This document shows, in pieces, positions 9,692 through 60,969 of a DNA stretch of 64,000 nt (position 1 is its first letter; every line of letters begins with the position of its first letter). Made by a program: the position numbers and the translations under genes. The DNA is from Lachnospiraceae bacterium (GTDB lineage: Bacteria > Bacillota > Clostridia > Lachnospirales > Lachnospiraceae). The stretch spans positions 1 to 64,000 of the forward strand of contig JAFXFO010000027.1 in assembly GCA_017520425.1 (NCBI GenBank). The letters run 5' to 3'. The notes beneath the pieces were generated by a model, which saw only the letters and a program-made list of their open reading frames with translations, was not told where the DNA came from and ran no database searches.

Positions 9692-9949
9692 TAGATAGAG
9701 AAAAACTGTGAACGAAAAGAGTACTCCAAGGAAAGTCACAGGGAGGGCGTGTCGGCGACTGGAAGCATGCCTGATGGAAGATGGAGGAAGTGCATTCGGG
9801 AGTTGGTTTTGCGAAGGTGCCTATAAACGGCAAACTAGCAGAACTCGTAGGCGTGCGTTAAACGCATTGAGGGAAAGGCAGATTTGCCTTTAAAAAGAGT
9901 GGAACCGCGGATAAATTCGTCTCTTAGGGAGGAGTTTATCCGTTTTTTT
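9692..9949 (+). promoter_or_regulatory. T-box leader, probably cysteine-specific
   Basis: The leader opens with GAACGAAAAGAGTA, typical of stem I, and carries the T-box core AGAGTGGAACCGCGG at about 9895-9910. The antiterminator competes with a terminator, CGGATAAA pairing with TTTATCCG before a T run ending at 9949. Uncharged tRNA pairs its CCA end with the T-box and keeps the downstream genes on. The genes cysE and cysS and a TGC in the segment GAAGTGCATTCGG near 9790 point to tRNA(Cys); the specifier position was judged by eye. Confidence 0.9.
9908..9949 (+). terminator. Regulated terminator of the T-box
   Basis: Stem CGGATAAA/TTTATCCG followed by seven T residues. It overlaps the 3' end of the T-box sequence, so it is the off state of the riboswitch. 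Confidence 0.85.
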
Positions 9950-18250: not shown

Positions 18251-18299
18251 AATCATTTATTCTATTATCTGATAGAAAATCATCCCAAAATTGTAATTT

Positions 18300-18610
18300 A
18301 AGAAAAGTGGCTTAATTTTTCAGTTGAGAAAGGCCTGGAAGTAGCCCAAAACTAAGCTAAAAACTATAAAATTGAAAAAGTGGCTTAGTTTTTCAGCTGA
18401 GAAGGGCCTGGAAGTAGCCCAAAACTAAGCTAAAATCTGTGAAATTGGAAAAGTGGCTTAGTTTTTCAGTTGAGAAGGGCCTGGAAGTAGCCCAAAACTA
18501 AGCTAAAAACTATAAAAATGAAAAAGTAGCTTAATATTTCATCTGTGTGAGGTTGGGAAGAAGCAGAAACCTAAGCCTAAAAATGGAGAAAAAGGGCTTA
18601 GTTCACTCAG
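18300..18610 (+). repeat. 73-bp tandem repeat array, each unit a hairpin
   Basis: Units begin at 18306, 18379, 18452 and 18525, exactly 73 bp apart, with a partial fifth near 18593. The first three are nearly identical; the fourth and fifth are degenerate. Each full unit has the 10-bp inverted arms GCTTAGTTTT and AAAACTAAGC with a GGGC/GCCC stem inside, so each folds into one hairpin. The first unit has one changed base (GCTTAATTTT). There are no variable spacers, so this is not a CRISPR array. The array fills the space between the RND gene and the gene at 18648, and its last part would be the leader of that gene. Confidence 0.93.
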
Positions 18611-18647
18611 ACATGATAAAAATAAATAAGAAAAGGAGAACAAAATT

Positions 18648-19439
18648 ATGAGAACAAAGGAGCAATTAGTTGAACGTTGTCAGTATTTACAGAAGGTAGA
18701 GAAGGAAAAAGAGAATGCCTTGTTAAAAGCACCTTTGGGAACTTTACGAGTGATGCAGCAGGGCGAGAATATGCGCTATTATGTGAGGAAAGAAGAATAT
18801 CCTAATGATACAATCTATCTTCCTAAGGAGAAGTTAAATCTGGCAAGGGACTTGGCGCAAAAGGATTATGATCAAAAGGTGTTAAAAGCCGTAAGCAAGG
18901 AATTGACAGCAATAAACAAATATATACAGCATTGTCCGTCCATAAGAGCAGAGCAAATTTATGAGACACTCCACAAAGGAAAACAGAGTTTGGTAACCCC
19001 TCTGTATCCATCTGATGAAGAATATGTACGGGAATGGGAGGCTGTAGAGTACGAGGGCAAACCTTTTTCAGAGAATGTACCGGAGTTTTATTCCATGAAG
19101 GGGGAGCGGGTACGATCCAAGTCAGAAGTTATTATAGCGGATATGTTATATCAGATGGGGATTCCTTATCGATATGAATATCCATTGTATTTGCGGGGCT
19201 TGGGAGTAATCTACCCCGATTTTACAGTGCTCAATGTAAGGGAGAGGAAAGCGGTATATTGGGAACATTTTGGAAGAATGGATGATCCGGAATATGCGGA
19301 GAAGGCGGTGCGGAAAATAAATTGTTTCAGACAGAATGGTTATTATGAAGAGGATAATACCCTGTATACATATGAAACTGGAAAAGAACCATTGAATCAG
19401 AAAATGATAAGGAGTTTGATAGGGCGAAGACTAAACTAG
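18648..19439 (+). CDS. Uncharacterised protein with PD-(D/E)XK nuclease-like C-terminal half
   Basis: 263-residue cytoplasmic protein without a recognised name. The N-terminal 110 residues are charged and helical. From about residue 150 the pattern RSKSEVIIADML, then GIPYRYEYPL, YPDFTVLN and YWEHFGRMDD follows the alpha-beta-beta-beta order of PD-(D/E)XK folds, with E in KSE, D in YPDF and an E-x-H/K-like position in WEH. A C-terminal helix with NCFRQNGYY follows. AAAGGAG is eight bases before the ATG. The hairpin repeat array lies directly upstream. Nuclease activity is inferred from the motif order only; the lysine of the classical motif is replaced, so it could be inactive. Confidence 0.6.
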   Translation: MRTKEQLVERCQYLQKVEKEKENALLKAPLGTLRVMQQGENMRYYVRKEEYPNDTIYLPKEKLNLARDLAQKDYDQKVLKAVSKELTAINKYIQHCPSIRAEQIYETLHKGKQSLVTPLYPSDEEYVREWEAVEYEGKPFSENVPEFYSMKGERVRSKSEVIIADMLYQMGIPYRYEYPLYLRGLGVIYPDFTVLNVRERKAVYWEHFGRMDDPEYAEKAVRKINCFRQNGYYEEDNTLYTYETGKEPLNQKMIRSLIGRRLN

Positions 19440-19926: not shown

Positions 19927-19999
19927 GCTGCTGTGGCTCAGTCGGTAGAGCGTCGCATTGGTAGTGCGGAGGTCACGGGTCCGATTCCCGTCAGCAGCT
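19927..19999 (+). tRNA. tRNA-Thr (anticodon GGT)
   Basis: Complete cloverleaf: acceptor GCTGCTG/CAGCAGC, D arm with GGCTCAGTCGGTAGAGC, anticodon loop TTGGTAG giving GGT, and T arm GGGTCCGATTCCC. No CCA is encoded. Followed 23 bases later by an unusually long hairpin. Confidence 0.95.
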
Positions 20000-20022
20000 T
20001 CCACGCTAGGCTAAAGCCGGGC

Positions 20023-20087
20023 AAAACGTAAAAGAAAAAGCAGGACATCAAGTTTACTTGAGAGTCCTGCTTTTTCTTTTGCGTTTT
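20023..20087 (+). terminator. Giant hairpin terminator after tRNA-Thr
   Basis: Inverted arms of 24 bases with one mismatch at 20023-20046 and 20064-20087 (AAAACG...GGAC against GTCC...CGTTTT); the 17-base loop contains a further CAAGT/ACTTG stem. T-rich right arm suits termination on the plus strand. Confidence 0.88.
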
Positions 20088-20091
20088 ATCG

Positions 20092-20205
20092 GGCGCAGCC
20101 CGTGATGAGCAACGTCAGTTGCGAATCCCGGCGTTAGCCTAAGTGTAGAGAGAGAAGGCGCAGCCCGTGATGAGCAACGTCAGTTGCGAATCCCGGCGTT
20201 AGCCT
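20092..20205 (+). repeat. Two identical 49-bp direct repeats
   Basis: Copies at 20092-20140 and 20157-20205 are identical and 65 bp apart. Each starts GGCGCAGCCCGTGATGAGC, holds the small stem GCAAC/GTTGC and ends CCCGGCGTTAGCCT. The end is nearly the reverse complement of AGGCTAAAGCCGGG at about 20008-20021, so the repeats also pair across the giant hairpin. Confidence 0.92.
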
Positions 20206-20231
20206 GGCTGCCATGATAAGTATTGGGTGCG

Positions 20232-20266
20232 GCTGCTGACGGGAATCGGACCCGTGACCTCCGCAC
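20232..20266 (-). repeat. Inverted 35-bp copy of the tRNA-Thr 3' half
   Basis: The segment is the exact reverse complement of 19964-19998, which runs from the 3' side of the anticodon stem to the acceptor end. Identity stops sharply at both ends. It is not a functional tRNA because the 5' half is missing. Confidence 0.95.
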
Positions 20267-20387
20267 GAATAAAGTAATAATCTGTTTATGCTATTATACT
20301 TATACATCCGCCAGGTTATTATTTTATAAGTTGAGAATATATGATATAATTCATACAAGGTAGAAACGTGTTTACAAGGAGCCCAAT

Positions 20388-20861
20388 ATGCGACTGATAA
20401 ATTATGATTTTGATGATTTGTATGCATTAATTGTATTTTTCAGAAATGATACAGATAAAATTGCAGAGTATGCAGAAGCAATCAAACAAATAATTGCCTG
20501 CTTAGAGGGGAAAAACGGAAAAATCGAATCTTCATGCAATACAATTCGTAAAATATTGCAATATTATGTCAAGGAAGAAGAACCGGGTCTGTTTTGGATA
20601 TGGGTAGAGAATATCTACACGGGGAATGTTTTTACTATGAAAAATGAGGGATATTACCGTGTACTGGCGGCAGTATTTCGAGAAATGCTTGCCGGTATAG
20701 GAGATAATCAACGCTTGTGGTGCCTATGTGATGCAACCCACAATCTGCCCATATTGCTGGTGGAATGTAAGGAACCGAAGAAGGGGATTATAACCATGAT
20801 TCGGATTTATCAAGTACAGTATAACAAAGATTTTTTGGCAGAAGAATTGAAAGCACTTTAA
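20388..20861 (+). CDS. Hypothetical protein
   Basis: 157-residue soluble protein of unknown function. The start is well supported by AAGGAG eight bases before the ATG, and a TATAAT lies at 20345-20350. The N-terminal half is helical and acidic, the C-terminal half has strand-like runs (NLPILLVECKE, GIITMIRIYQVQ). No signal peptide, membrane helix or known catalytic motif is seen. Size and position beside other small orphans recall immunity-type proteins of accessory regions, but no toxin gene is near, so no function is claimed. Confidence 0.65.
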   Translation: MRLINYDFDDLYALIVFFRNDTDKIAEYAEAIKQIIACLEGKNGKIESSCNTIRKILQYYVKEEEPGLFWIWVENIYTGNVFTMKNEGYYRVLAAVFREMLAGIGDNQRLWCLCDATHNLPILLVECKEPKKGIITMIRIYQVQYNKDFLAEELKAL

Positions 20862-20909
20862 CAAGATAGTTTACCAATGCCATTTGAATGATAAGAAAAG
20901 GATATAACA

Positions 20910-21392
20910 ATGTTACAAAACACTATTGAAAATATGAGTAACTGGACCAAAATCACAGAATTCTCCGTGGGTGGTTTTCTTTGGATCGGCTATTCGAAAA
21001 AACAAACCCATAAACTGATATGCATTTCTTCGGAATATTCCTCTGTGGTGAATTGCGATACAGGAGAAATCGAAGAATGTGATGCAGAGTATGATGAAGA
21101 ACAGTATATAGCTGTTTGCGACCGGTTTGAAGGGGAGGAGATACCCATTTATGGACAATATGGCGGAGAACCAATTCTTACCACATTAGCCGGTGAAAGC
21201 ATTCACGTTCGAGTGCAGGAAGAGATGTATGCAGGGAAAGCGGTGATGAGATATAAAATATATTGGAATACATCGCAATCCCATGCGGAAATCTATAACA
21301 ATTACGGATACTATGTTTGTTCCTTCAGCTTGTGCGGTAATTATTTCGTGCTGGCGGAGGATGCAGGAATTACAGTATATAAGAGAGGATAA
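20910..21392 (+). CDS. Hypothetical protein
   Basis: 160-residue soluble protein of unknown function, rich in Tyr, Glu and Ser. The pattern of strands in the second half (GGFLWIGYSK, AVMRYKIYWN, YYVCSFSLCGNYFVLAED) suggests an all-beta or propeller-blade-like fold. An AAAAGGA site precedes the ATG. It lies 48 bases after the previous orphan and only three bases before the NUDIX gene, so the three genes probably form one transcript. Confidence 0.7.
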   Translation: MLQNTIENMSNWTKITEFSVGGFLWIGYSKKQTHKLICISSEYSSVVNCDTGEIEECDAEYDEEQYIAVCDRFEGEEIPIYGQYGGEPILTTLAGESIHVRVQEEMYAGKAVMRYKIYWNTSQSHAEIYNNYGYYVCSFSLCGNYFVLAEDAGITVYKRG

Positions 21393-21395
21393 CCT

Positions 21396-21860
21396 ATGAT
21401 TCACGTGAATGTAAGAGGTCTTCTGATTCGGGAAAAGGAAGGCGAAAAGCAATTACTCATTCAGCTGAGAAAGCGAAAGGGCGAAGCGCAGGTGTATGAA
21501 CTGCCCGGTGGCAGAATAAATGAATATGAAAGTATTACAGACGGACTCAAGCGGGAAATCATGGAAGAAACCGGTTTGAAGATAACTGCAATCCGTGGTG
21601 AACAGGAGAAGATTACCACCAACGGGAAAAGTTTTACTATGGAATGTATCAAGCCTTTTTCTGCTTATCAGACATTGGAGGGACCGGTAGATTCCTTTGG
21701 GATTCATTTTATTTGTGAAGCGGAAGGTGAACTGTTGACCACCGGTGATGATACGGCTGATATTCATTGGGCCTGTAGAGCAGAACTTCAAAAGCTTATT
21801 GATGAACATAAATTTTCAGAGATTGATTTGCCGGCGCTGTTAATGTTTTTGAAGAATTAA
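21396..21860 (+). CDS. NUDIX hydrolase
   Basis: 154-residue NUDIX-fold pyrophosphohydrolase. The NUDIX box is complete: GGRINEYESITDGLKREI followed by MEETGL, with the metal-binding Glu residues in place. The N-terminal strand MIHVNVRGLLIRE and the C-terminal helix fit the fold. The substrate cannot be told from the sequence; family members clean up nucleotide or sugar-nucleotide derivatives. AGAGGA lies ahead of the ATG, within the end of the upstream gene, which supports coupling to it. Confidence 0.9.
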   Translation: MIHVNVRGLLIREKEGEKQLLIQLRKRKGEAQVYELPGGRINEYESITDGLKREIMEETGLKITAIRGEQEKITTNGKSFTMECIKPFSAYQTLEGPVDSFGIHFICEAEGELLTTGDDTADIHWACRAELQKLIDEHKFSEIDLPALLMFLKN

Positions 21861-21895
21861 TGTTAGGATTATTTTGTAAGGTCCGACTTGTATAG

Positions 21896-22090
21896 GATAA
21901 AGAGGCTGAACCCAATCCCCATTTACATGTGCATGTGAGACCGAGATATAAAAATGCTATTGAAATAAATAATCATTCGTACATGGATTCCGAGTTTGCA
22001 CATCATTATGCTTTGCGAAAAGAGATTTTATTGACAAACGAAGATAGAAAAGTATTGTATGAGTTAATGAAGAAACATTTTTCTCAGTAG
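21896..22090 (+). pseudogene. C-terminal remnant of a HIT-family hydrolase gene
   Basis: An open frame without a start, from 21896 to the TAG at 22088-22090, encodes 64 residues beginning at the NPHLHVHVRPRY segment, which is the catalytic HxHxH triad and its flank in HIT-family dinucleoside polyphosphate hydrolases. It continues with FAHHYALRKEIL and a helical end. The N-terminal half of the domain is missing and an in-frame stop lies just upstream, so the gene is broken. Confidence 0.8.
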
Positions 22091-22598
22091 AGTCTGCGTA
22101 TGATAAGATGGTATTGGACATATATGTAAGAAAGTTGAGAATATATCCAAAAAAAGGGCTATTTGCATGATTTTAAGGCTGTTTTCGTCAGAATTGGATA
22201 TATAGAAAAAAATACAGCTAATATGTCCACAAAATAGGGCAAACCATGGATATTTTGGGAGGAATCTTTTGTATATGTCCAAAAAGCTTCAAAAAGTGTC
22301 TGATATATGCGAAAAAGGGGATTATTTTGGACATTTTTGGTAGAAAAAATAGTATATGTCCAAAGAAGAACCGGAGTTGGTGGTTAGCGTGTAGGTGGGG
22401 TCAAGGGAAGCCGTGAGAGATGCGAGAGTCTATACCATACATAAGATAGAGTCAGATAATTATATCCGATTTGTCATATATGTGCATGTCGACGTGTCGA
22501 AATTTGTAGATAATTGACGAAAAACACTTTTGCCCCTTCTCACAGGGGTAAAAGTATGGTATGATGATAAAAAATAAACAATAGTAAAGGAAGCCTGC
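22091..22598. other. Gene-free stretch with short dispersed repeats
   Basis: No supported gene. It holds seven copies or near-copies of ATATGTCCA or its complement TTGGACAT at about 22114, 22141, 22194 (complement variant), 22221, 22273, 22327 (complement) and 22354, often followed by a run of A. Beyond 22366 there is unstructured sequence, then the palindrome at 22526. Confidence 0.75.
22526..22555 (+). promoter_or_regulatory. 12-bp palindrome in front of a small gene
   Basis: ACTTTTGCCCCT (22526-22537) and AGGGGTAAAAGT (22544-22555) pair with one G-T mismatch over a six-base loop. It lies just upstream of TATGAT at 22560-22565, a possible -10, so it may be an operator; lack of a T run argues against a terminator. 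Confidence 0.5.
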
Positions 22599-26905: not shown

Positions 26906-28278
26906 TGGAAAAGAAGGAATTCCTGAGGAAAATTCAGAAGTATCAACGAAAACTGAATAGGGCAGAATTGGTGCAGAATCTGATAATTTCCTTATGCATC
27001 GGTGCAGGTGTGGGAATTCTGTTTCAGATAGTAGCTTTTCTGGTGGTCTTCTATCCGGTCAATTGGTATAGTATTGCTGCTTTGGTGATAGCGGCAGTGA
27101 CAGCGGTGGTGCTTACCCTGTGCAGAAAAAAGAGTATGCAACAGACCGCACTTTATATGGACCGATTTGGTTTTCAGGAGAGAATCGTAACGGCTTATGA
27201 GCATCTGGAGGAAGAAGGAGAGATACTTCGTCTTCAAAGAGCAGATGCCATGAAGCAACTGCAGGCCAAGGAAGACAGGATAAAGATTCCCTTGTTGAAG
27301 AGCTGGAAGCAACCGGTTTTTACCCTGGGACTTTTGGCAGTCATGGTGGTGCTGATGATGGTGCCCTCTGAGACCAAGAAACAGGCAAAGGCCCTGCATA
27401 TGGTTCGGGAAGAGGCACAGGAGAAGCAGGAGGAGCTACAGGAAGTGTTGGAAGAAATGGAGGAGCTGGCAGAAAACACCTTGACTCCGGAACAGCTGGC
27501 AGCCCTTCAAGAGATGATAGAAAGTCTGCAGTCTTCCATGCAGGAGTATAATCAGGTGGAGTCCACGGAAGCCTTGCAGGCAGCCAATCAAAAGCTGGAT
27601 TATAAATATCATAATATGCAACAGCAGTTGGAAAATATGGTGGCACAGCAGATGCTGAGTAGCGGTGCGGCAGCATCCTTTCAGTCTCTGGAAGCCATGC
27701 AGCAAATGGCAGAAATGATGCAGGAGCTTCAAAATAGCGGAATGCAGGATGGTAGTCCCTCTTTGGCCGGCAATCAGGGACAAAACGGGCAGCAGGGGAA
27801 TAACCAGCAGGGTAACGGCAATTCCTCAAATAACGGCCAGAACGGCCAGAATGGTCAGAACGGCAATAATCCCGGCGACGGTCAAAATGGCCAAAGTGGT
27901 AATGGTCAGGGAAATGGCCAGGGCCAAGGAAACGGTCAAGGTCAGGGAAATGGTGAAGGCCAAGGCCAAGGTCAAGGCCAGGGTACCGGTGAAGGAAGCG
28001 GTCAGGGCCGTGGAGAGGGCAGCGGAAGCTCACCTCACGACTATGTAAGTATCCCCAATGAAATTATGGATGCGGGCAATCTGAATGGTAGTGCAAACGG
28101 CCATGAAAATTCGGACTTTTTCCGTACACAAAATGGTATCAGCTGGGAAGGCAATCATGTATCCCATGAGGCAGTTATGGGTACCTATGAGCAGAAGGCT
28201 TATGAAGGAATTGCTGCGGGAAGATATCCCAGCGGTATGGAGGAAGTCATTAAGGAATATTTTGCAAGCTTTAATTAA
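26905..28278 (+). CDS. DUF4175-like membrane protein with coiled coil and Gly/Gln/Asn-rich region
   Basis: 457-residue protein. Membrane helices lie at about 25-49, 53-72 and 135-153. A Glu/Gln-rich coiled coil at about 160-280 has repeated EELQEVLEEMEEL-type heptads. Residues about 288-375 are a low-complexity stretch of GQ, GN and GQG repeats, encoded by a matching short-period DNA repeat. A folded C-terminal part of about 80 residues with DYVSIPNEIMDAG follows. The start codon overlaps the permease stop by one base. Proteins of this plan accompany MoxR/DUF58/VWA clusters in many bacteria; the exact role is unknown. Confidence 0.75.
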   Translation: MEKKEFLRKIQKYQRKLNRAELVQNLIISLCIGAGVGILFQIVAFLVVFYPVNWYSIAALVIAAVTAVVLTLCRKKSMQQTALYMDRFGFQERIVTAYEHLEEEGEILRLQRADAMKQLQAKEDRIKIPLLKSWKQPVFTLGLLAVMVVLMMVPSETKKQAKALHMVREEAQEKQEELQEVLEEMEELAENTLTPEQLAALQEMIESLQSSMQEYNQVESTEALQAANQKLDYKYHNMQQQLENMVAQQMLSSGAAASFQSLEAMQQMAEMMQELQNSGMQDGSPSLAGNQGQNGQQGNNQQGNGNSSNNGQNGQNGQNGNNPGDGQNGQSGNGQGNGQGQGNGQGQGNGEGQGQGQGQGTGEGSGQGRGEGSGSSPHDYVSIPNEIMDAGNLNGSANGHENSDFFRTQNGISWEGNHVSHEAVMGTYEQKAYEGIAAGRYPSGMEEVIKEYFASFN

Positions 28279-48812: not shown

Positions 48813-48829
48813 GTTTCTAACAAAATAAA

Positions 48830-48995
48830 GATAGAGGTTGCGTTTTTTATTAGTAAATCTTTTGATGTGACAGGCACAGGAGAGAAAGAGGGAAAGGGAA
48901 AGACGCCGAAAGAGGAGATATCCTGTAAGTCAAGTCTTGGGCATACAGTTAAGAGCTGTATGACTGTCATCTGTTTTTTAGGTGGGGCGCTATCA
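48830..48995 (+). promoter_or_regulatory. Lysine riboswitch (L-box)
   Basis: The leader has the class landmarks in order: TAGAGGTTGCG, a short AGTAA segment, GGGAAAGGGAAAGACGCCGAAAG, CTTGGGC, a GACTGTCA stem and the closing GGGGCGCTATC. In this class lysine binding stabilises a fold that lets the downstream terminator form. It controls dapA and probably dapB and fbp. Confidence 0.95.
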
Positions 48996-49035
48996 GATTA
49001 TGATCCAAATAAGTGTATTATATTTGGAAAGAATT

Positions 49036-59550: not shown

Positions 59551-60969
59551 ATGGGTTTAATCAGAGCAGCAAAAGATTCTATCAGTTCCTTGTTGGCAGA
59601 TCAGTGGCGTGAGTATTTCTATTGTGATACATTACCCAGTGATGTTTTGATGAGAAGGGGTAAGAAGAATAATCCCAACAATAATAACAAGGGTAATGAT
59701 AATGTTATCAGCAACGGTTCTCATATTGCGGTAAATGAAGGCCAGTTTATGATTATCGTGGACCAGGGTGCAGTAGTGGATTTCTGTGCGGAAGCAGGTG
59801 TTTTCGTATACGATACTTCTTCCCAGCCCAGCCTTTTGTACGGTGATTTAGGTGAAAATATCAAGAATACCTTTAAGGAAGCTTGGGAAAGATTTACCTT
59901 TGCCGGCAATGTGGGCGGTGACCAGAGAGTATATTTTATTAACAAGAAGGATATCCGTGGCAATCTTTTCGGTACATCTACTCCTATTGATTTTCATATT
60001 GTACATAAGAAATCAGGCTATGAGTATGATACCGTGTTGAAGTGCAATGGTGAATATGTATTCCGTATCTCAGATCCTTTGATGTTCTACAAGAATGTTT
60101 GCGGTAATGTGAAGGATGAGTTCACTAAGGACGATGAAGAATGTCAGCTTCTGCTGAACAATATGAAGAGAGAAGTGGTTTCTAAGCTGACAGGCGCTTT
60201 GGCACCTATTGCAGCAAAGGGTGTAATGCCTTATGAAATCGGCAACTATCATGAAGAAATCTGCATGAACATGCAGCAGCAGTTGAGCCAGATTTGGGAG
60301 GCTGACAGAGGTATTATCATGACCTCCATGACCATTGTTCCCAATCTGTCTAATGATGTACGTGATGAGCTGAACAGATGGAATGAGTCCATGATGTATG
60401 TGAGCGGTTCTCAGACCTTAGATGCAACCATGAACCAGAAAGCAGTTCAAAACAGAGAAGCAATCAATCAGTTTATCGGCAATTCCAGCTTAGGTGGCGG
60501 CGCTAACGGTGGTGGTACCGATCCTATGAGTGGCATGATGGGCATGATGGCCATGAACATGATGGGCAATATGATGGGCGGCAACAATATGATGCCCGGT
60601 AATAACATGATGGGCAACAACATGATGAACAATAATATGATGAATAATGCTTATGCACAGCAGCCCGTGCAGCAGGCACCTCAGATGCAGGCGCCCGTAC
60701 TTGGTTGGACTTGTGAATGCGGTAAGAGCGATAATCGAGGCAAGTTCTGTGAGGAATGCGGTAAGCCCAAGCCGGCAGCAGCAGGCTGGACATGCCAGTG
60801 CGGTTCTGTAAACCAGGGCAAGTTCTGTCAGAATTGCGGTACCAAGAAACCGGAGGGTGCACCTTTGTACAAATGTGACAAGTGTGGCTGGGAGCCTGAA
60901 GATCCTGCCAAGCCTCCGAAATTCTGTCCGGAATGCGGCGATATTTTTGATGATAACGATATCAGATAA
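59551..60969 (+). CDS. SPFH-domain protein with Met/Asn-rich linker and zinc ribbons
   Basis: 472-residue cytoplasmic protein of the YdjI/virion core-like SPFH family. The SPFH domain covers about residues 1-305 (LADQWREYFYCDTLP, VNEGQFMIIVDQGAVVDF). A low-complexity stretch at about 310-375 of MMGMM, NNMM and GNNMM repeats follows. Three zinc ribbons end the protein: CECG/CEECG, CQCG/CQNCG and CDKCG/CPECG pairs. GGTGGAGGA precedes the ATG at 59551. The neighbour at 61045 also ends in a zinc ribbon. Such proteins are thought to form membrane-associated scaffolds; the role here is unknown. Confidence 0.88.
   Translation: MGLIRAAKDSISSLLADQWREYFYCDTLPSDVLMRRGKKNNPNNNNKGNDNVISNGSHIAVNEGQFMIIVDQGAVVDFCAEAGVFVYDTSSQPSLLYGDLGENIKNTFKEAWERFTFAGNVGGDQRVYFINKKDIRGNLFGTSTPIDFHIVHKKSGYEYDTVLKCNGEYVFRISDPLMFYKNVCGNVKDEFTKDDEECQLLLNNMKREVVSKLTGALAPIAAKGVMPYEIGNYHEEICMNMQQQLSQIWEADRGIIMTSMTIVPNLSNDVRDELNRWNESMMYVSGSQTLDATMNQKAVQNREAINQFIGNSSLGGGANGGGTDPMSGMMGMMAMNMMGNMMGGNNMMPGNNMMGNNMMNNNMMNNAYAQQPVQQAPQMQAPVLGWTCECGKSDNRGKFCEECGKPKPAAAGWTCQCGSVNQGKFCQNCGTKKPEGAPLYKCDKCGWEPEDPAKPPKFCPECGDIFDDNDIR

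Follow-up and report, generated by a model that had tools for sequence, protein, structure and literature searches.

REPINs are inverted doublets of REP sequences with conserved ends and less conserved spacers and are linked to RAYT genes, as described in excerpts of PMC3116915. The RAYT enzyme and its REP repeat diversify together and the gene is flanked by the repeats (excerpts of PMC3116915 and PMC8266576). REP palindromes bear a GTAG or CGTC tag (excerpt of PMC3733652). An earlier sequence-only reading had drawn on this comparison for the locus considered here, where a tandem array lies next to a nuclease-like gene. No description of such a gene-array system was found in searches of an open-access library.

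The locus was found in a Lachnospiraceae genome of 2.9 Mb in 42 contigs (the source genome), within a window of 64,000 nucleotides, which is the whole stretch of DNA analysed. Its features are the following:

18280..18315, forward strand: cell 1, TCATCCC (18280-18286), 22 nt and GGCTTAA (18309-18315); heterotypic cell at the outer array end
18302..18582, forward strand: tandem array of 73-bp units with array-specific linkers separating the cells (TRF)
18352..18388, forward strand: cell 2, CTAAGCT-N23-GGCTTAG
18425..18461, forward strand: cell 3, CTAAGCT-N23-GGCTTAG
18498..18534, forward strand: cell 4, decayed, CTAAGCT-N23-AGCTTAA; two mismatches, outside the cell census
18571..18601, forward strand: cell 5, decayed, CTAAGCC-N17-GGCTTAG; gap six off
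18648..19439, forward strand: ORF of 263 aa; N-terminal region of about aa 1-130, fold unassigned; C-terminal PD-(D/E)XK-like domain, profile match at aa 136-259

The 73-bp array described by the sequence-only reading was confirmed by TRF and by a separate repeat search. TRF called 3.3 copies at 18303-18545 (89% matches, score 395) and also a row of 146 bp at 18302-18582, and the separate search returned three 146-nt copies at a spacing of 73. The array is thus real, but its span, given as 18300..18647, needed correction: it starts with the half-site TCATCCC at 18280-18286 and the last decayed cell ends near 18601. The decayed end does run into the leader of the gene, as had been proposed, and lies about 46 bp from the ORF. 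An arm pair of 10 bp had been assigned to each unit. It is exact in some units, with the arm GGCTTAGTTTT at 18382 and 18455 and the partner arm AAAACTAAGCT at 18348, 18421 and 18494, but the first unit carries GGCTTAATTTT. The 73-bp unit is best read as a cell of 36-37 bp, consisting of TCATCCC or CTAAGCT, 22-23 nt and GGCTTAR, followed by a linker.

At Rfam gathering scores five matches were obtained within the window, none of them at 18280-18601; a T-box leader (9699-9927) and a lysine riboswitch (48824-49000) lie elsewhere. A promoter scan of the window array gave a single weak match on the reverse strand, no terminator-like site and no promoter standing out. Tandem repeats of short period (9-36 bp) were also called by TRF at 27832-27995 and 60543-60648. 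Just downstream of the tRNA gene at 19927-19999, about 2.5 kb (20001-22494) is unmatched in the syntenic locus of a relative (L059), where 0.57 kb is found. By eye, part of the tRNA end recurs in this segment in inverted orientation (20232-20266), together with two direct repeats around 20092 and 20157; it is perhaps a small tRNA-associated insertion.

The array is not confined to the window. The pattern TAAGCC-N12..42-GGCTTA occurs 25 times in the source genome, compared with one occurrence of the reversed control pattern; 21 of the 25 have a gap of 23-24, and every one of these lies in an array. Among 138 genomes of the genus, the source genome with its 25 matches (control 1) was followed by genomes with 17 and 13 (controls 11 and 8). 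BLAST and the pattern census together gave eight further arrays whose cells consist of a half-site, 22-24 nt and a half-site, on contigs C4, C15, C11 (two), C10 (two and the contig end, overlapping C32) and C8. None of them adjoins a homologue of the gene; the nearest one is 9 kb away, on C4. The source genome has four family members, namely the window gene, one on C4 and two on C28, and the C4 paralogue has degenerate arms with only weak matches elsewhere. Among the nine array consensuses, identity was 0.93 for the right half-site, 0.67 for the left half-site, 0.61 for the A-rich gap (expected 0.40) and 0.43 for the linker (expected 0.34), whereas linkers within one array had a mean identity of 0.73. 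So units are homogenised inside an array, while different arrays have diverged from one another, with the right half-site changing least.

Twelve places were inspected for their position among genes: the window array, the eight others and one weak place of another family in the source genome, and two in the relative G006. None (0/12) lies between divergent ORFs, and three dispersed arrays of the source genome are found between convergent ORFs. According to a mechanical ORF list, short ORFs overlap four array pieces. The array on C4 fills a gap of 385 bp between an arginase and a dehydrogenase gene, which are adjacent in relatives too. In five relatives the same gap measures 17, 18 and 31 bp in three, and two (L317 and L318) have 262 and 241 bp of different intergenic sequence at this place. 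Hence, this array either arrived after the species split or was lost elsewhere. Inspection by eye gave no sign of a target-site duplication. The end of C10 and the start of C32 (L019, L022) overlap by 137 identical bases, and several homologues among the family matches are located near contig ends. Assemblies can end within such arrays, and array-bearing homologues may thus be under-counted in fragmented genomes.

The sequence-only reading described the repeat as hairpin-forming; hairpins as its defining property were not supported. In ten array pieces of the source genome, a left and a right half-site lie within 0-50 nt of each other in 49 pairs, and 40 of these have a gap of 22-24, in four combinations. 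The cell census (at most one mismatch per half-site, gap 20-26) gave 40 cells, two of which were counted twice in the overlapping contig ends, leaving 38 distinct ones. They comprise 26 of the CTAAGCC/GGCTTAG types, eight TCATCCC/GGCTTAR (five within one array), two CTAAGCC/GGGATGA (one of which reads AGGATGA) and two TCATCCC/GGGATGA; the outermost half-sites are often TCATCCC and GGGATGA. While 28/38 cells are homotypic, 10/38 have heterotypic, non-complementary half-sites at the same gap, and a hairpin is hence not required. In the syntenic L059 all four exactly matched cells read TCATCCC-N23-GGCCTAG, which is non-complementary as well. As mixed cells are unable to form a stem, the fixed gap needs another reason, and most simply it would reflect a protein that spans a pair of half-sites in double-stranded DNA. 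RNA folding of the units was no better to modestly better than that of shuffles (z +0.3 to -2.0), and nothing was found for the RNA repeat-processing that had also been considered. Eight homotypic single cells folded better than shuffles as single-stranded DNA (z -1.3 to -4.7); hairpins may therefore have an added role.

The spacing of the units follows the DNA helix. In relatives, 50 of 55 upstream periods measure 52-55 (17 loci), 62-64 (15), 73-75 (15) or 82-84 bp (3), and the others 36, 44, 92, 100 and 105 bp. For the 52 upstream periods of 45-100 bp, R was 0.83 with a phase of 0.01 turns at a pitch of 10.5 bp. After removal of relatives with more than 70% protein identity R was 0.86 (46 loci), and with more than 50%, 0.83 (30 loci); 11 far arrays of at least 45 bp gave 0.38. 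The 63 upstream and downstream values reached a best R of 0.81 at a pitch of 10.1 bp (phase 0.26), whereas none of 2000 random-integer draws exceeded 0.47. The fit of the pitch is broad, the upstream optimum of 10.2 bp (R 0.84, phase 0.19) fitting little better than 10.5 bp. Distances between exact arms in 38 loci, found without TRF, gave R 0.83 and a phase of -0.02 turns at 10.5 bp, with some of them (60, 65, 90, 96, 97, 115, 119) falling between the classes. Single arrays also mix classes, such as 52 and 82 in L004, 62 and 73-74 in L086 or 63 and 73 in L128, and one-turn steps within a single array are not easily explained by common descent. Judged from the sequences, the array periods correspond to a whole number of DNA helix turns.

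The pairing of array and gene noted by the sequence-only reading proved to be recurrent. At the loci of relatives, TRF detected arrays of different sequence directly upstream of homologues. As TRF alone misses degenerate arrays, a score for inverted arms was added. A tandem or inverted-arm array was then found in 56/89 upstream, 17/94 downstream and 3/121 far stretches (upstream versus far, Fisher p 9e-24, for loci that are not independent); the upstream test covered loci with a full 800-bp stretch, those below 780 bp being excluded. For the best 80 of 569 relatives, the fraction of positions covered by arrays was 0.34 at -500 to -250, 0.25 at -250 to 0, and 0 to 0.03 beyond 1.5 kb. A 7-mer occurring at least three times in both orientations was present in 38/95 upstream, 10/104 downstream and 0/58 far stretches; in this inverted-arm scoring, one locus (L093) is of low sequence complexity, and scores of up to 8 were obtained with its shuffles. 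In 31/42 loci the near end of the upstream array and the point where the protein match begins are separated by 40-230 bp.

In a tree of 96 homologues, the 66 array-bearing loci are scattered across both deep branches. By automatic criteria, 50 have an array upstream only, 13 on both sides and three downstream only, and 30 have none; by eye, degenerate arms are visible in some of the latter (L002, L066, L069). The tree was built from 96 of 104 loci, those with less than 250 bp upstream being excluded. The set of 104 excludes L035 (6 bp upstream), L041-L044, L053 and L058 (partial or domain-only) as well as matches without a locus; the 30 loci L139-L168 lie outside the analysed set. One gene is represented twice, as L032 and L064, and three further pairs are at least 90% identical. 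Arrays flank the homologue on both sides for example in L097, L103, L109, L111, L114, L120, L132 and L136, with identical arms and period on either side of the gene in L097 and L120. This gives the impression of a gene inserted into an array or delimited by it. The arms are CGATGCC in L097 and CTATGCC in L120, and L132, a locus of Eubacterium uniforme ATCC 35992, has a GCTTTCC/GGAAAGC array. Related homologues tend toward common arms (48 loci, Mantel r 0.18, 0/5000 permutations as high; TRF units scoring at least 6.8 and 15 arms entered by hand), a weak correlation that is explained in part by descent. Taken together, these distributions support a recurrent partnership of array and nuclease-like gene over a large protein family, and this link is not due to chance.

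Arrays without the gene were also found in relatives. Twenty stretches of 20 kb each were sampled blindly from the genomes G356, G342, G006 and G095, and later 19 stretches of G292 and 16 of G364. In three of the four sampled gene-bearing relatives, the half-sites of the gene recur with the exact gap in distant gene-less arrays. In G006, both GGGGC-N25-GCCCC and GCCCC-N17-GGGGC are present in the gene-linked array L057 as well as in each of three distant arrays, with differing linkers. In G342, two of whose three family matches were covered as gene loci, GTACCCC-N24-GGGGTAC and TTACGTGT-N22-ACACGTAA were each found at a gene locus and, with a differing interior, in a distant sampled array; other sampled arrays, e.g. 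one with TGTACCATAT arms, matched no covered gene. G364 has GTACAG-N18-TACTGT at the gene and 1.1 Mb away. In G292 the gene-linked array is decayed, and no dispersed array was seen in the 380 kb sampled. An automatic filter alone (non-coding, inverted arms) returned three arrays for G342, none for G006 and G356 and one for G095; recognition by eye added the array sampled in G006 and, in G342, the array L226, which the filter had placed in an open frame. G356 and G095 carry weaker family matches only (E 7e-25 and 1e-35). In 400 kb of each, no array row was obtained for G356 and two for G095, which belong to one long array of 66-bp period that looks like a CRISPR.

A BLAST search of the array itself in 60 relatives, close to a check that the sequence-only reading had suggested, gave just three matches of 20-27 bp, judged to be chance; few matches are found because the half-sites are short and the linkers turn over. 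That repeats should always lie beside the gene does not apply, as gene-less arrays exist, but those matched lie in gene-bearing genomes and bear the half-sites of the gene. Likewise, the gene comes with repeats in 66/96 loci and, by automatic criteria, without a detectable array in 30/96. To count repeats without the gene, or the gene without repeats, against the link, as had been proposed, is too strict.

Acidic catalytic residues of PD-(D/E)XK nucleases follow the motif E...PD...(D/E)xK. In 23 aligned homologues 15 positions are invariant, among them S157, K158, E160, P190, D191, F192, E206 and H207. The third motif reads EH at E206 in these homologues, and the usual lysine two residues on is missing. 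The invariant residues are compatible with a PD-(D/E)XK nuclease, an assignment based on motifs and weak profile matches. The C-terminal part matches the PADLOC profile PDC-S68 (E 9e-27), whose fold is not stated by PADLOC; of its more than 1200 positions roughly the last hundred align with the protein. The same domain also matches the candidate-defence profile PDC-S69, and weakly HEAT_CxxC_PDDEXK (E 0.0054; 5.8e-5 and 3.1e-4 in two of three relatives). No fitting Pfam model was found for the 263-aa protein, with no match to PF01797 (Y1) at E up to 1, and the domain by itself gave no significant Pfam match either; no NCBIfam model fits four homologues. The 23 homologues gave scattered weak Pfam matches, PF01797 being absent among the 25 of 29 families listed. 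A match to PF01452 (rotavirus NSP4) in one homologue (E 9.9e-5) was judged to be a coiled-coil artefact. A profile search of solved structures (PDB) with the whole protein and the domain gave nothing significant; similarities to T7 endonuclease I (E 0.5) and a family of phage Holliday junction resolvases (E 0.005) were counted as non-significant.

The protein family is widespread. Matches at E up to 1e-10 were obtained in 127 of 397 genomes of the Lachnospiraceae, the weakest of which (E about 1e-11 to 1e-37) may be other proteins sharing just the domain. One collection contains 569 relatives at E up to 1e-3, and the best 80 include Treponema. A phage search gave three records, one of them nearly full length (95%) on an unannotated faecal scaffold of 4.2 kb. 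Nine plasmid records were found, none spanning more than 51% of the query, and nine IMG/VR loci, all confined to aa 133-260. Full-length carriage on phages or plasmids was thus not observed by these searches. Between 1 and 11 matching places, some being fragments of one gene, were found in each of the 14 close relatives searched. Identity exceeds 50% only at the syntenic locus L059, and the runner-up has 45%.

Between L059 and the source genome, identity is 86% for the upstream transporter and 90% for the next ORF, compared with 58% for the nuclease-like protein. A further neighbour is just 47% identical, and low conservation is therefore not unique to the nuclease-like gene; the contrast in identity is at most suggestive of a special speed of change. 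This sole close ortholog (L059:3001-3789) has one in-frame TAG near the C-terminus, and the species concerned may therefore be losing the gene by decay.

Gene and array probably form a single system, a PD-(D/E)XK-like protein paired with its own address in double-stranded DNA. This reading builds on features evident from the genomes compared: arrays are associated with the gene, their periods are quantised in helical turns, the gap is fixed, half-sites are mixed, arrays are dispersed, and half-sites are kept up despite linker divergence. The address would consist of paired half-sites of about 7 bp at a fixed distance (22-24 bp in the source genome); with tandem repetition at a whole-turn period, bound subunits would lie on one DNA face. 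The protein would bind to its own array, contacting the half-sites as an oligomer, perhaps via the N-terminal region, with one array upstream of the gene and copies of the same address at other intergenic places. The nuclease domain might nick or cut at bound arrays and recombinational repair might then copy or expand them; array and gene would thereby behave as a selfish repeat system, as REPINs and RAYTs do. Such a system fits best with an address that differs between the paralogues covered, the turnover between species, the gene-less intergenic copies and the retained catalytic motif. We propose tentatively that it represents an undescribed class of selfish repeats, in which each paralogue of the PD-(D/E)XK protein has a private duplex address and the nuclease seeds and expands gene-less arrays chromosome-wide.

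Alternatively, the protein could be a DNA-binding regulator with an inactive or incidental nuclease-like domain, the upstream array being autoregulatory and the dispersed arrays controlling other genes. The array end 40-230 bp from the protein-match start in 31/42 loci agrees with an operator, and helical phasing is typical of cooperative regulators. Three dispersed arrays between convergent ORFs, 0/12 places between divergent ones, the invariance of the presumed catalytic residues in 23 homologues and the lack of a promoter standing out at the window array do not. A regulon defined by the flanking genes was rejected, since the nine Pfam-matched ORFs among the ten scanned are mutually unrelated in function. 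We regard regulation as unlikely. Unlikely, too, is a leashed defence nuclease that attacks foreign DNA, with the arrays holding or titrating it or marking the chromosome as self and the address serving as a safety device. The candidate-defence profiles PDC-S68 and PDC-S69 point in this direction, but just about the last hundred of the more than 1200 positions of the PDC-S68 profiles match, and no partner genes were seen. The identity of 58% compared with 86% and 90% for the two nearest neighbours, together with the 1-11 matching places in 14/14 close relatives of which one exceeds 50% identity, would suit defence as well; against this stands the third syntenic neighbour with 47%.

A structure-specific nuclease that processes REPIN-like hairpins, the arms being stems of single-stranded DNA or RNA, would be consistent with the folding of the eight homotypic cells and with the non-significant likeness to T7 endonuclease I and the resolvase family. 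It is quite improbable in view of the non-complementary half-sites in 10/38 cells, five of them in one array, and in 4/4 cells of L059, and helical-turn quantisation would not be expected of single-strand hairpins. Finally, the gene might be a bystander of ordinary slippage repeats or of REP elements mobilised by a Y1 transposase. Bacteria often have tandem repeats and the source genome does have a single Y1 gene (C31:67959), but no array was found on its contig. Coincidence hardly agrees with 56/89 upstream versus 3/121 far stretches, nor with gene-linked half-sites and gaps that match dispersed ones in the same genome; moreover, the two genomes with weaker family matches only gave 0 and 2 array rows per 400 kb, both CRISPR-looking with a 66-bp period. 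This explanation is very improbable.

With the two-part system, a large and often multi-copy family of gut and rumen bacteria, whose scanned members have no Pfam or NCBIfam model, would gain a partner and a testable mode of action. As homologues carry an adjoining address, the DNA specificity of many proteins might be readable from genome sequence, and the addresses would offer ready data from which a protein-DNA code could be learned. Should the arrays spread, short repeats would colonise bacterial genomes by a route other than a known transposase, and the REPIN-RAYT idea would get a test with an unrelated enzyme.

Among known systems, arrays of iterons and operators are bound cooperatively by replication initiators or regulators. 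They share with the present arrays the tandem, helically phased sites adjoining the gene of the presumed binding protein, but differ by the many dispersed intergenic arrays with differing linkers and by the nuclease-like domain found here. BOX elements of streptococci are similarly modular with distinct end modules and repeated inner modules. They are not known to have a partner gene; here, the outer (TCATCCC/GGGATGA) and inner half-sites (CTAAGCC/GGCTTAG) are interchangeable and paired with a gene. CRISPR arrays likewise contain regularly spaced, partly palindromic repeats adjoining a nuclease-like gene, but the linkers of the present arrays repeat one another within an array (mean identity 73%) and are not unique spacers. 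The comparison with REP/RAYT put forward by the sequence-only reading is a fair analogy, though membership was not supported. Common to both, as far as the excerpts of the cited papers describe REPINs and RAYTs, are inverted half-sites at a set distance, less conserved interiors, and one dedicated enzyme whose gene is flanked by repeats that are also dispersed between other genes. In contrast to RAYTs, the 263-aa protein has no HuH/Y1 (PF01797) match; unlike REP palindromes, the half-sites need not be complementary (10/38 heterotypic), and they form tandem arrays with periods of whole helical turns. On the best reading of this comparison, the system would work like REPIN-RAYT but with an unrelated enzyme and geometry.
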